A stretch of 64,000 nucleotides of DNA from the NCBI RefSeq assembly GCF_016756535.1, contig NZ_AP023247.1:744001-808000 (forward strand), written 5' to 3'. This DNA is from Mesorhizobium sp. 131-2-1 (GTDB lineage Bacteria > Pseudomonadota > Alphaproteobacteria > Rhizobiales > Rhizobiaceae). This document shows positions 1,938-5,253 of this stretch, in pieces. The notes beneath the pieces are model-generated. The model was given only the letters and a program-made list of their open reading frames with translations. It did not search any database and had not been told where the DNA came from. The position numbers and the translations under genes are program-made. The first letter of the stretch is position 1. Each line of letters begins with the position of its first letter.

Positions 1938-3002
1938 ATGTTCGGATACGCAAGAGATTTCGTGCACTCGCGGCGCGGCTCGATGATGCCGGTGTTCGTC
2001 ATCATCCTGACGCCGCTGCTGCTCGCCGTCGGCTTTTCGGTCGACTACACATCGGCGGTCGAGACGAAGAGTAACATGCAGAACGCGCTCGACGCGGCGA
2101 TCCTGTCGATCACCACGCTGCCGACCACGACCAAGCTGGCCGACCGCGAGATTTCGCTGCAGCAGGCCTTCGCCGCCAATGGCGGGCAAGGCACCGCCAA
2201 GCTCGACAGCTTTGTCGTGGCCGCCGACGGCACCGCCACCGCCACGGCCTCGGCGCACTACCCGATGCCGACCAATTTCATGCAGATCGCCAGGATCGAG
2301 ACGGTCCAGGTCGGCGTTGACGCGGCGGTGCGCAAGCGGCCGACGCTGGTGCAGACCACGTTCAGGGTCACGAAAGTGTCCGGCTACTGGAACAAGACGA
2401 TGACGCTCTACGGCACCAAGTTCGGCGACAAGGTGGCCAAGCCGCTGATGACGATCACCTATGCCTACAACAATTTCGGCGACCCCAAGGGCTACGGCAC
2501 CTCGATCGTCAGCACGATCAACGGCAGCACCACGACCAAGGTGCAGCAGCAGGTCTGCACGACCGCCACGGTGAAGAACTTCAACAGCCTGCCCAGCGGC
2601 GCGATCACGCAGACCAGCGGCAGCAAGAAGTATGTGACGATTTGCGCCGATACTTTCTATCCCAGCAACGGCGCCGGCGCGGTGATCGACGTCAGCCAGA
2701 TGGACAACCTCTATCTGCAGATGGACGTGCCCTCGGGCAGCCCGAAGGTGCTGAAGTCCAACGATCCGACCACCTCGAACCGGCTCTATATCGGCACCAG
2801 CACCACCACCATGCCCGAAGTCGCGACCGGCCAGACGGTCGACATCTTCACCGCCGTGCCCTGCGGCCAGACCGGCTACCAGGCCTGGGAGGACGGCGGC
2901 AACCCGGTGCCGGCCGACGTCAGCAACGCCGACTTCTTCTACACCGTCCAGGGCAAGTGCGACTTCAACCAGCGGCCGTCCAACACGGTGCTGACGCAGT
3001 AG
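1938..3002 (+). CDS. TadG-like pilus-assembly/membrane-anchored protein
   Basis: Protein of 354 residues beginning MFGYARDFVHSRRGSMMPVF. The N-terminal 60 residues match the Flp pilus assembly TadE/G-like domain: a short basic stretch, one hydrophobic segment (about residues 15-35), then VDYTSAVETKSNMQNALDAAIL, the usual post-membrane helix. The remainder is an extracytoplasmic beta-rich, Thr/Ser-rich region with four cysteines in its C-terminal half that could form disulfides. No von Willebrand A domain is apparent, although many TadG proteins have one. The start at 1938 was chosen over 1884 because GGGGGA precedes it and the hydrophobic segment is then correctly placed. No other tad genes are nearby, so it is an orphan; its partner machinery would be elsewhere. 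Confidence 0.75.
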   Translation: MFGYARDFVHSRRGSMMPVFVIILTPLLLAVGFSVDYTSAVETKSNMQNALDAAILSITTLPTTTKLADREISLQQAFAANGGQGTAKLDSFVVAADGTATATASAHYPMPTNFMQIARIETVQVGVDAAVRKRPTLVQTTFRVTKVSGYWNKTMTLYGTKFGDKVAKPLMTITYAYNNFGDPKGYGTSIVSTINGSTTTKVQQQVCTTATVKNFNSLPSGAITQTSGSKKYVTICADTFYPSNGAGAVIDVSQMDNLYLQMDVPSGSPKVLKSNDPTTSNRLYIGTSTTTMPEVATGQTVDIFTAVPCGQTGYQAWEDGGNPVPADVSNADFFYTVQGKCDFNQRPSNTVLTQ

Positions 3003-3019
3003 GGGGTGCTGCGCACTCC

Positions 3020-3163
3020 CCTTCTCCCCTTGTGGGAGAAGGTGGATCGGCGCGCAGCGCCGAGACGGATGAGGGGTGTTCCAGCGGAGTGAGACGTCGG
3101 CGTTCCCTGGAGCACCCCTCATCCGTCGCCTGCGGCGACACCTTCTCCCACAAGGGGAGAAGG
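3020..3163. repeat. Large palindromic repeat, copy 2
   Basis: Intact 144-bp copy. The left arm CCTTCTCCCCTTGTGGGAGAAGG and the right arm CCTTCTCCCACAAGGGGAGAAGG are inverted copies, and the inner arms GGATGAGGGGTGTTCCA and TGGAGCACCCCTCATCC pair as well. It starts 17 bases after the TadG-like stop and could act as its transcription end. Confidence 0.9.
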
Positions 3164-3196
3164 AAGGACGCTCGCAGTCACAAACCGGTGAAGCCT

Positions 3197-3222
3197 GTAA
3201 CGAAGCGCTCCGTGGCGGCGAA
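3197..3222 (+). promoter_or_regulatory. Candidate ECF16/SigF-type promoter for the DUF1223 gene
   Basis: GTAACG at 3197-3202, 16 bases, then CGAA at 3219-3222. The consensus known for Caulobacter SigF (ECF16) is GTAACC-N16-CGAA, so nine of ten fixed bases agree. The -10 ends 36 bases before the start codon at 3259. A similar site with the same spacing precedes msrA. Assigned by eye only. Confidence 0.45.
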
Positions 3223-3258
3223 GTGGGGATGTAGCCCACCGCAACGGAGACTTTCTTC

Positions 3259-3957
3259 ATGACCGGACCCAAGACATCGCTGGGCAGAGCGCTGCTCGCC
3301 GCCGCGGCGCTTGCCGCCATGCCGGCTGGCGCCTCCGCGCAGCCGCTGACGGTGGTCGAGCTGTTCACCAGCCAGGGCTGCTCGTCCTGCCCGCCGGCCA
3401 ACGCCAACCTGATCAAGGTCAAGGACCAACCCGGCGTGCTGGCGCTGTCGTTTAACGTCACCTACTGGGACTATCTCGGCTGGAAGGACATTTTCGGCCG
3501 CGAGGAATTCACGCAGCGCCAGGTCAACTATGAGCCGTCGCTCGGCCGCTCCGGCCCGTTCACGCCGCAGGTGGTGGTGAATGGCGCGGCCGACGCGGTC
3601 GGCGCCCGGCCGGGCGAGATCGAGCAGCTGATCGCAGGCAGCGGCCAGACGCAAGGCCCTTCGCTGTCGCTCGACGGCGGCCGGATCAGCGTCGGCGCCG
3701 GCACGGCGCCGACGGGCGGCGCCGACATCTGGCTGGTGCGCTACCGGCAGGGCGTCGTCGACGTGCCTGTGGCGCGCGGCGAAAACAGCGGCCGCACGCT
3801 GCCGCACGCCAATGTCGTGCACGCGCTGCAAAAACTCGGCCGCTGGAACGGCGCGGCGACGACGCTGCCGCTGCCGGCCGATGGCGACGGCTTGAGCACC
3901 GCGGTGCTGCTGCAGTCGCCCGGCGGCGGGCCGATCCTCGCCGCGGCCACCAACTGA
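3259..3957 (+). CDS. Exported DUF1223 thioredoxin-fold protein
   Basis: DUF1223-family protein of 232 residues. Residues 1-28 form a signal peptide ending ASAQ. The mature part opens with VVELFTSQGCSSCPPAN, a thioredoxin-like CxxC (CSSC), followed by LSFNVTYWDYLGWKDIFG and GPFTPQVVVNG, the hallmarks of the family. Its two cysteines are the only ones in the protein. The biochemical role of DUF1223 is not established; the fold and periplasmic location suggest a thiol-disulfide function. It is the first of three exported proteins in a row, ahead of a methionine-rich protein and an exported MsrA, and might pass electrons to the latter (inference). Family assignment is firm, role is not. Confidence 0.88.
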   Translation: MTGPKTSLGRALLAAAALAAMPAGASAQPLTVVELFTSQGCSSCPPANANLIKVKDQPGVLALSFNVTYWDYLGWKDIFGREEFTQRQVNYEPSLGRSGPFTPQVVVNGAADAVGARPGEIEQLIAGSGQTQGPSLSLDGGRISVGAGTAPTGGADIWLVRYRQGVVDVPVARGENSGRTLPHANVVHALQKLGRWNGAATTLPLPADGDGLSTAVLLQSPGGGPILAAATN

Positions 3958-4038
3958 TCATCCAGATTGCGCAACGCCGCATGAGCGGCGCCGCACCCAC
4001 CGGCCGCATTTGGCGCGCCACCCAAACAGGAGACTTGC

Positions 4039-4392
4039 ATGACCCGTTCCTCCCGCCTGACGGCACTCGCCCTGGCCTTCTCGGCCACGCTTCTTGCCGG
4101 CGGCATGGCGCGCGCCGAAGATGCGATGAAGCCGGCCAATGCCATGGCGACCGACGCCATGAAGCCGGCGACGGATGCGATGAAGCCCGCGACCGATGCC
4201 ATGAAGCCGGCCGGCGCGATGGCCACGGATGCGATGAGCACGCAGGCGATGAAGCCGGCCGATGCGATGAAGCCGGCGACGGACGCCATGAAACCTGCGG
4301 ATGCGATGGCGGCCGATCCGATGAAGCCCGTCGACCCGATGGCCTCGACCGACGCCATGAAACCGGCGGATGCGATGGCGCCGGCGCAGTGA
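4039..4392 (+). CDS. Exported methionine-rich DAMKPA-repeat protein (MrpX-like)
   Basis: Protein of 117 residues. Residues 1-27 are a signal peptide (hydrophobic LALAFSATLLAGG, cleavage likely after ARA). The mature 90 residues are an irregular repeat of DAMKPA/DAMAT units with about 15 methionines, roughly one residue in six, plus many Ala, Pro, Lys and Asp and no Cys. It must be disordered. It resembles the pentapeptide MXKDX repeat family, whose Azospira member MrpX is a sacrificial periplasmic methionine source for reactive chlorine, recycled by MsrP. Here the neighbour downstream is an exported MsrA, which supports the same role with a different reductase (inference). GGAG seven bases before the start serves as ribosome site. 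Confidence 0.75.
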   Translation: MTRSSRLTALALAFSATLLAGGMARAEDAMKPANAMATDAMKPATDAMKPATDAMKPAGAMATDAMSTQAMKPADAMKPATDAMKPADAMAADPMKPVDPMASTDAMKPADAMAPAQ

Positions 4393-4405
4393 AACAATCG
4401 CAAAG

Positions 4406-4430
4406 GGCGCTCCCCCTGTGGGGGAGCGCC
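4406..4430. terminator. Perfect GC hairpin between Met-rich gene and msrA
   Basis: GGCGCTCCCCC, a TGT loop, then GGGGGAGCGCC: 11 perfect base pairs, 13 bases after the stop of the methionine-rich gene. There is no T-run, so it may attenuate or protect the 3' end rather than terminate strongly. It resembles the centre of dispersed palindromes. Confidence 0.5.
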
Positions 4431-4462
4431 GTCGCGAACAAGAGCCGCCCCACGGCAAATTG

Positions 4463-4488
4463 AGAACCCCCTGGTGGCTTCGGTCGTA
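4463..4488 (+). promoter_or_regulatory. Candidate ECF16/SigF-type promoter for msrA
   Basis: AGAACC at 4463-4468, 16 bases, then CGTA at 4485-4488, ending 30 bases before the start codon. Compared with GTAACC-N16-CGAA this has three mismatches, but the spacing and position equal those of the site ahead of the DUF1223 gene. Tentative. Confidence 0.35.
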
Positions 4489-4518
4489 TATATTGGAACA
4501 ACAATAAGGAGACCCGAC

Positions 4519-5253
4519 ATGACCGCAATTCGACAGCAGGGGCGATCGTCGACCTTCGCCAAGGGCGCGCTTGCCGCGCTGATCCTGACAGTCGCTGCCG
4601 CTGCCTTCTGGCAGACGCCGGCCGTCTCGGCCGAGGACGCGGTGGTGATCCCGCCGCCGGCTTTGGACGAGAAGGCAGCGAGCGGCAGCGAGACGGCCGT
4701 CTTCGCCGGCGGCTGCTTCTGGGGCGTGCAGGGCGTGTTCCAGCACGTCAAGGGCGTGACCAAAGCCGTTTCCGGCTATACCGGCGGCAGCGCCGAAAAC
4801 GCCGTCTACGAAACTGTCGGCACCGGGCGCACCGGGCACGCGGAATCGGTCGAGATCACCTACGATCCGTCACAGGTGACCTATGGCCAGCTGCTGCAGG
4901 TCTATTTCTCGGTCGCGCACAATCCGACGCAGCTCAACTACCAGGGACCGGACCACGGCACGCAGTACCGCTCGACGATCTTCGCCGAGAACGACCAACA
5001 GAAGCAGATCGCCGAGAGCTACATCGCCCAGCTCGACAAGGCCAAGGTGTTTTCCGCGCCGATCGTCACCACGCTGGAGACCGGCAAGACCTTCTATCCG
5101 GCCGAGGACTACCACCAGGATTTCCTGACCCTGAACCCGACCTATCCCTACATCGTCTACAACGACCTGCCGAAGGTGGCGAATTTGAAGACGCTGTTCC
5201 CCAAGCTCTACAGCGAAACGCCGGTGCTGGTGCTGGCGAGCAGCAAGAGCTGA
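4519..5253 (+). CDS. msrA: Exported peptide-methionine (S)-S-oxide reductase MsrA
   Basis: Reduces the S-epimer of methionine sulfoxide in proteins. Of the 244 residues, the first 38 or so form a signal peptide or anchor (ALAALILTVAAAAFWQ, then AVSA), so the enzyme is sent to the periplasm. The catalytic motif GGCFWG is present, as are TGHAESV and DHGTQYRS, which carry the active-site Glu and Asp. The catalytic Cys is the only cysteine in the protein: the usual resolving cysteines are absent, so an outside thiol donor is needed. The start at 4519 has AAGGAG 7 bases upstream. It lies downstream of the methionine-rich and DUF1223 genes. Confidence 0.93.
   Translation: MTAIRQQGRSSTFAKGALAALILTVAAAAFWQTPAVSAEDAVVIPPPALDEKAASGSETAVFAGGCFWGVQGVFQHVKGVTKAVSGYTGGSAENAVYETVGTGRTGHAESVEITYDPSQVTYGQLLQVYFSVAHNPTQLNYQGPDHGTQYRSTIFAENDQQKQIAESYIAQLDKAKVFSAPIVTTLETGKTFYPAEDYHQDFLTLNPTYPYIVYNDLPKVANLKTLFPKLYSETPVLVLASSKS

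Follow-up and report, generated by a model that had tools for sequence, protein, structure and literature searches.

Positions 3197 to 5253 of the window (the whole 64 kb stretch of DNA analysed here, taken from a 7.1 Mb Mesorhizobium genome in two contigs) on balance probably encode a methionine-sulfoxide module of the cell envelope, switched by an ECF16 sigma factor, in which a methionine-rich protein, to which I will refer as METR, serves as a sink recycled by MsrA and MsrB, much as in the MrpX and BcrX systems. The original prediction proposed a module of two genes, METR and MsrA. The pairing stands, but a third gene, encoding a DUF1223 protein, and an ECF16 promoter motif now belong with it. 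The reading draws on the layout of the genes, their conservation, purifying selection on METR, the promoter footprint and a link to a known protein family, all of them seen in the sequences themselves. The locus consists of the following features.

1938 to 3002: TadE/G-like gene, upstream of the module
3197 to 3222, plus strand: predicted ECF16 (SigF/EcfF-type) promoter, GTAACGAA...GCGAA, 36 nt 5' of the DUF1223 start codon
3259 to 3957, plus strand: exported DUF1223 protein with thioredoxin fold and CSSC motif (PF06764, E 1.9e-57)
4039 to 4392, plus strand: exported Met-rich repeat protein METR, 117 aa, with DAMKPA-type units
4393 to 4518, plus strand: METR-MsrA intergenic region, with a GC-rich hairpin lacking a T-run and a promoter-like block TTGAGA...TATATT
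4519 to 5253, plus strand: exported one-cysteine MsrA, 244 aa from ATG, with an alternative GTG at 4474
Downstream of the module, opposite strand: cydB/cydA

The ORFs of METR and MsrA, both on the plus strand and separated by 126 nt, lie where the original prediction had placed them. Upstream of the listed features there is an insertion element (about 659 to 1806, with a DUF772/DDE_Tnp_1 transposase at 792 to 1748). Judged by eye, its ends are the inverted repeats CCTGTTGCG...CGCAACAGG, and it apparently sits within a copy of a palindromic repeat that is found also at about 3010 to 3165.

METR begins with a 26-residue signal-like N-terminus ending ...GGMARA/ED (by eye). The mature part of 91 residues contains 15 Met, in agreement with what was first noticed, along with 28 Ala, 12 Asp, 12 Pro and 9 Lys. 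The excess of Met has a binomial P of about 8e-9, if a Met frequency of 2.5% is assumed. The Met residues are spaced 5 to 7 residues apart in units of the type DAMKP(A)(T), and the DNA beneath them forms a 21-nt array of 7.2 copies with 68% matches (TRF). To judge from substitutions, the ORF is under purifying selection: pN/pS is 0.13 over eight ungapped pairs of orthologs, which are not independent of each other (L097, L109 and L113 recur). Met was kept in 154 of 162 ortholog comparisons, Pro in 146 of 154 and Lys in 128 of 138. Since Pro and Lys are retained about as well as Met, Met is not singled out by selection. The analysis of selection and composition made use of 48 parsed genes out of 57 (L126 was left out and eight were not parsed), amongst which the mature length ranges from 45 to 100 aa and the density of Met from 13 to 18%. 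Ten of the 48 contain Cys; the mature part of METR in the window has neither Cys nor His.

Proteins of the family TIGR02953 (MXKDX) consist of a signal peptide followed by short repeats of Met, Lys and Asp. METR fits the pattern of a signal (by eye) plus short repeats, but its unit is DAMKP(A)(T), not MxKDx. The METR of the window scores 31.6 bits against the family, under the cut-off of 41, and is the sole match in its genome. Four of its orthologs were scored as well, and three of them pass (L122 at 41.4 bits, L120 at 48.5 and L077 at 41.7). These three carry a block resembling DCMxKAxME..DAMKKDE, while the fourth, L125, has the pure DAMKPA form and fails at 31.2 bits. Since orthologs in the same slot exceed the cut-off, the DAMKPA form would seem to be derived, and METR is apparently to be counted amongst the derived relatives of the TIGR02953/MrpX/BcrX proteins. 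The parallel to MrpX-type SigF systems, suggested at the outset, is thus borne out by the family tie as well as by the ECF16 promoter motif considered below. A second exported Met-rich protein, METR2, is encoded outside the window (G000:C1:936766-937062, L364). Its Met residues are clustered, and it matches no NCBIfam family at E<=0.1. The gene is present in 20 of 31 genomes of the genus, with the ECF16 motif in 18 of the 20 (in the window's genome, 71 nt upstream).

The MsrA of the window belongs to Pfam PMSR (PF01625, E 8e-58) and scores 177.8 bits against TIGR00401, as compared to a cut-off of 108.1. Its signal-like N-terminus ends ...TPAVSA/ED, and the two N-termini, assessed by eye, agree with the export claimed earlier for both proteins. 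Classical thioredoxin-recycled MsrA possesses a C-terminal resolving Cys, a trait not defining for one-Cys MsrAs. That Cys is absent here; the sole Cys is the catalytic one, in GCFWG. A single Cys is the rule in the genus (57 of 60 MsrA rows), the other three rows being L119, with two Cys, L120, with a second in the signal region, and L126, which covers the C-terminal half only. Given one Cys, a second thiol donor must resolve the enzyme. In the genome of L126 (G005) the MsrA ortholog is split over two frames while promoter, DUF1223 and METR are intact, a case either of decay or of assembly error.

The spacer between METR and MsrA has a median length of 171 nt (range 70 to 338, 55 loci). A transcription terminator between the genes was considered and rejected: none of the 55 loci parsed (56 were tried) has a stem of at least 7 pairs with a T-run. 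Across much of the genus the eye finds a block before msrA, at 4455 to 4500 in the window, consisting of TTGAGA (GTGAGA in many strains), about 21 nt, and then TATAnT. The spacing is long for sigma-70, 21 of 60 loci match a strict pattern for its TATA-like portion, and a sigma-70 scan of the window's spacer before msrA gave no promoter-like site. The block persists in L121 and L124, from genomes without the ECF16 module, and so msrA may have a promoter of its own and may also be made independently of METR.

Amongst the named matches listed, Mesorhizobium is the source of the closest relatives of MsrA and of most relatives of METR. I searched 61 Mesorhizobium genomes for the MsrA ortholog and found it in 59 (58 intact, and G005 in two frames); it is absent from G013 and G056. 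Sixty loci were compared, 59 of them from 58 other genomes (G053 has two) plus that of the window. METR stands just before MsrA in 57 of the 60 loci, equivalent to 57 of the 59 genomes with MsrA, so that the pairing is indeed conserved in related genomes, as the original prediction would have it. Within the 60 loci METR was not found before MsrA in G006, in G024 and in the second copy of G053.

Of the 57 genomes in which the syntenic place could be assessed (L074 and L108, cut by contig ends, are left out of the counts), 55 have the promoter motif GTAACN15-17CGAA there and 50 have DUF1223. The promoter precedes DUF1223 in 50 genomes and stands directly before METR in five (L116, L117, L118, L120 and L122). 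Its position directly before METR where DUF1223 is absent argues that the promoter serves METR. Further matches to the motif in the 60 loci amount to one on the plus strand upstream (L109) and one outside the 1.7 kb that precede msrA.

What counts as evidence is the conservation at the syntenic place; the motif in the window is not significant by itself. GTAACN14-18CGAA has its sole match in the window at 3197 to 3222, but shuffled windows average 0.55 matches and contain at least one in 45 of 100 cases. Nor does the genome as a whole show an excess, with 30 hits to the ECF16 motif against 182 for a reversed control. Counting hits over the genome was for this reason given up as proof of a regulon, and footprinted hits alone were used. 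The window's genome has one match to the anti-sigma factor NrsF, with an ECF gene that is itself preceded by the ECF16 motif, about 0.8 Mb from METR and MsrA; the motif precedes ecf16 in all 30 loci examined. An exported MsrB with a Tat-like signal is encoded 74 kb from the MsrA of the window (G000:C1:674477-674977, L336). Its ortholog is present in 28 of 31 genomes searched, and the motif precedes it in 27 of the 28, the miss being G006. Hits that remain candidates, having no footprint, lie before genes for a cytoplasmic MsrB, a peroxiredoxin-like protein (by eye) and a BufA2-like protein, the last at 25.6 bits, below the cut-off of 60. From the footprints and the single NrsF match, control of METR and MsrA by ECF16 (SigF/NrsF) is predicted.

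NrsF is found in 58 of the 61 genomes and is absent from G006, G013 and G024. In G006 and G024 MsrA has been kept and promoter, METR and NrsF are all absent; G013 lacks the MsrA ortholog along with NrsF. The counter-case is G056, where NrsF is present (two matches) and the MsrA ortholog absent. By the MsrA tree the sister of G006 is L120, where nrsF, ecf16 and METR are contiguous, and the absences in G006 may therefore represent a single deletion rather than several losses. The tree was built from 74 chosen rows, 16 of 60 from the genus, 38 of 40 from the family and order and 20 of 74 from named matches. The METR label requires three changes on it, and 28 of 500 shuffles gave a number as low, a pattern compatible with a single gain and two losses, G006 accounting for one of the losses. 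The tree does not show one clean origin of the METR label; 15 of the 16 genus rows make up a supported set (99/86), and L124 lies outside it.

Outside the genus the kin of METR keep different company. Nineteen of 151 genomes of the family match TIGR02953 at E<=0.001, nine of them over the cut-off. The window's aside, there are 18 such genomes, and in nine the MxKDx gene is followed by genes for a membrane cytochrome b and then a molybdoenzyme of the YedY type (L206-L211, L213-L215). The gene for ECF16 lies beside six of these nine loci and DUF1223 in front of four. In the remaining nine genomes the neighbourhood of MxKDx is different or ambiguous, and in none of the 18 is MsrA found within the flanks examined, at most 1.5 kb on either side. 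In L120 and L122 METR and MsrA diverge from ecf16-nrsF, in the spot taken in other genera by MxKDx-CytB-YedY. MsrA, then, occupies the place that CytB and YedY hold in relatives, and there exist loci with both. One is L182, from another family, with the order promoter-MxKDx-CytB-YedY-MsrA and a convergent gene for an MsrB whose N-terminus is signal-like; in L179, a relative of L182, CytB-YedY-MsrA is present and no MxKDx was detected. Another is L297, from a betaproteobacterial MAG, where MxKDx-YedY-CytB lies within 2.2 kb of MsrA along with an ECF16-like gene.

Beyond the genus MsrA is patchily distributed. Relatives of it, those of the genus included, were found in 15 of 101 genomes of the family (E<=1e-50) and 32 of 199 of the order (E<=1e-45). 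The 40 loci taken from family and order often have MsrA alone or with MsrB, many behind an element GTAAC...CGTA/CGAA. By eye, a Met-rich gene is near MsrA in one of the 40, with CytB-YedY between, and other ORFs in these loci that looked Met-rich lack the pattern of signal plus repeat. Since a Met-rich gene is so rarely near MsrA outside the genus, MsrA does not need METR. The named loci tell much the same. Amongst the best 80 of at least 583 confirmed matches, six are from Mesorhizobium, and METR adjoins MsrA in five of the six by a filter that missed one true case (L228, whose contig is as long as that of L105, a locus with METR). By the same filter, which misses one true case in six, METR adjoins MsrA in none of the 74 loci from elsewhere.

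The DUF1223 protein scores 195.1 bits against PF06764 (gathering cut-off 30.7) and matches PDB 2axo (Atu2684) with E 7.7e-35; according to the accessible part of PMC3091736, the family is assigned to the thioredoxin clan. Every one of the 50 DUF1223 copies in the genus loci has a CxxC motif. Because of the thioredoxin fold, the CxxC and the place in the operon, DUF1223 is possibly the reductant of the one-Cys MsrA, a candidacy that forms the weakest step of the model. The notion that it is an obligatory partner of MsrA is weakened twice over, by its absence from the five METR-MsrA loci at which the promoter directly precedes METR (a statement about those loci only) and by its presence before MxKDx-CytB-YedY in four other genomes. 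In two of those four its second Cys has been lost (L213 and L214, with CSSV) and in the other two kept (L210 and L211), so a correlation of CxxC loss with a CytB-YedY partner is only suggestive. Across genera DUF1223 accompanies METR rather than MsrA.

If the module works as I propose, NrsF would answer to an oxidant in the envelope and ECF16 would be released to switch the module on. The Met residues of exported METR would react in the periplasm with HOCl-like oxidants or peroxides. Exported MsrA would reduce Met-S-sulfoxide in METR and in other envelope proteins, and the R form would be taken by the co-regulated, exported MsrB. With its one Cys, MsrA would depend on another thiol for resolution, and the DUF1223 protein encoded in the same operon may supply it. 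A thiol enzyme would in this way replace the molybdenum YedY-type reductase in a sink like that of MrpX/BcrX. I infer that METR is a scavenger recycled by MsrA/MsrB, with MsrA most likely its recycler. The original prediction had MsrA as the recycling gene; that an exported MsrA is adjacent holds good, but the enzyme lacks a resolving Cys, and an exported MsrB elsewhere shares the motif. A more specific version, in which replacement of the partner gave rise to a molybdenum-free periplasmic Met cycle run by the one-Cys MsrA (plus MsrB) and resolved by DUF1223, I hold to be doubtful.

Other explanations may be set against the proposed sink. MsrA might be a neighbour by descent, repairing ordinary envelope proteins and sharing the promoter through a common stress response, while METR is served by a CytB/YedY-like reductase encoded elsewhere. 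The genome does retain a CytB and YedY-like pair (C1:3296012-3296437, L064), MsrA homologs elsewhere do without METR, and a promoter-like block precedes msrA. The pair, however, lies at none of the 30 hits to the ECF16 motif and may be a remnant of the partner that relatives have. Its YedY-like protein reaches 101 bits against MsrP, below the cut-off of 207, and a canonical MsrP was rejected for this genome, none of the two PF00174 proteins scanned (of three matches) exceeding that cut-off. The only TIGR02953 match of the genome is METR, whose adjacency to MsrA survives without DUF1223 and without linkage to ecf16, for example in L116. These considerations render the explanation rather unlikely. 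Improbable, to my mind, is that METR buffers periplasmic Cu(I), Ag or Cd in the manner of ECF16-controlled DUF2282 proteins, with MsrA repairing metal-driven oxidation of Met. The copper "Mets" motif is a cluster of the form M-x(1-3)-M, and as a first reading of METR it was abandoned in view of the spacing of 5 to 7 residues; there is no such cluster, no His, and no Cys in the mature protein of the window, though Cys does occur in ten of the 48 parsed orthologs. In addition, the characterised relative BcrX sits, as given in the accessible part of the report, in an operon for HOCl resistance (PMC8315932). What speaks for metals, besides the BufA2-like gene behind its unfootprinted hit, comes from the available portions of two papers: SigF of Caulobacter responds to Cr and Cd and has DUF2282/DUF692 operons under its control (PMC3511200), and in Mesorhizobium STM 4661 a gene for MsrA, which may or may not correspond to that of the window, is listed with 1.13 (P 3e-4) under Cd (PMC3668242).

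Very improbable is the idea that METR is a signalling decoy, the oxidised form competing for MsrA/MsrB or being sensed so as to tune ECF16/NrsF. METR does have the ECF16 promoter motif and adjoins ecf16-nrsF in L120 and L122, and sensing through Met in OsrA is a speculation of Masloboeva et al. (PMC3420878, in the part accessible). The variation of METR in length (45 to 100 aa) at a steady Met density of 13-18% is instead what one expects of a bulk sink, not of a specific ligand.

The proposed sink has counterparts in known systems, described here from the accessible parts of the papers unless otherwise indicated. The MrpX/YedYZ/SigF type is characterised amongst other things by hypochlorite scavenging through cyclic oxidation of Met, as is proposed for METR. 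MrpX-YedYZ of Azospira suillum PS, under SigF/NrsF, shares the exported Met-rich peptide, an Msr partner and the ECF16 control that is predicted for Mesorhizobium (PMC4623255, PMC8315932). The partner of MrpX, however, is the molybdenum enzyme YedY with YedZ, in contrast to MsrA in Mesorhizobium, and no DUF1223 is mentioned in those parts. BcrXQP of Brucella melitensis, with BcrS/AbcS, shares the MXKDX protein, the predicted ECF16 link and the promoter GTAA-N-CGAA; the operon is controlled by ECF16, induced by HOCl and contributes to resistance to HOCl. It differs in having three genes with MsrQP as partner, and the same portions leave MsrA and DUF1223 unmentioned (PMC8315932). The EcfF/OsrA regulon of Bradyrhizobium japonicum shares the control of Msr genes by ECF16 that is predicted here. 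EcfF controls three, one of them predicted to be periplasmic, and the reductant proposed is Bll1027/Bll1026, a DsbD-type core and a thioredoxin; no Met-rich protein is named in the part available (PMC3420878). In the perchlorate islands of P. militaris MP and D. hydrogenophilus LT-1 exported msrA/msrB are grouped with sigF/nrsF, yedYZ and mrpX, but are described as additions to the function of yedYZ/mrpX, not as the partner of mrpX (PMC4623255).

Closer to the window's genome, Mesorhizobium huakuii 7653R has two MsrA and two MsrB, all induced by NaClO. Its msr deletion mutants are more sensitive to H2O2, to which only msrA1 responds, and both msrA2 and msrB2 reach peaks of more than 1000-fold, in roots at 5 days and in nodules at 35 days (PMC13272141). 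The full text contains neither "periplasm" nor "signal peptide", and "methionine-rich" only in the title of a reference; msrA2 and msrB2 would, I infer, be the exported pair. Against a uniform link between ECF16 and MsrA, Caulobacter SigF left expression of msrA unchanged, its targets not being induced by ROS generators (PMC3511200), and fusions to Sinorhizobium RpoE7 (ECF16) were unresponsive to H2O2, Cd and chromate (PMC6180224). Amongst the matches listed in the literature searched, seen in part and with Melnyk 2015 outside its scope, none names such a pairing of MsrA with a Met-rich protein for Mesorhizobium. The earlier remark that no MsrA-based version was known has to be qualified in view of the perchlorate islands (PMC4623255) and of L182. 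The METR-MsrA module does not call for a class of its own; it is most naturally grouped with MrpX/BcrX, as a variant.

A few bacteria are known in which a molybdenum reductase serves a Met-rich decoy. If a whole genus has METR beside a thiol-dependent MsrA instead, the sink and its recycling enzyme would look like exchangeable parts. Were the partner-replacement version true, DUF1223 would gain a function, and the module would point to a role for this secreted thioredoxin-fold family, as yet without a named one. METR itself is an ORF annotated as "hypothetical protein" in many Mesorhizobium records. Together ECF16, METR, METR2, MsrA and MsrB could form the set of genes that underlies the induction of msr genes by hypochlorite in a legume symbiont.
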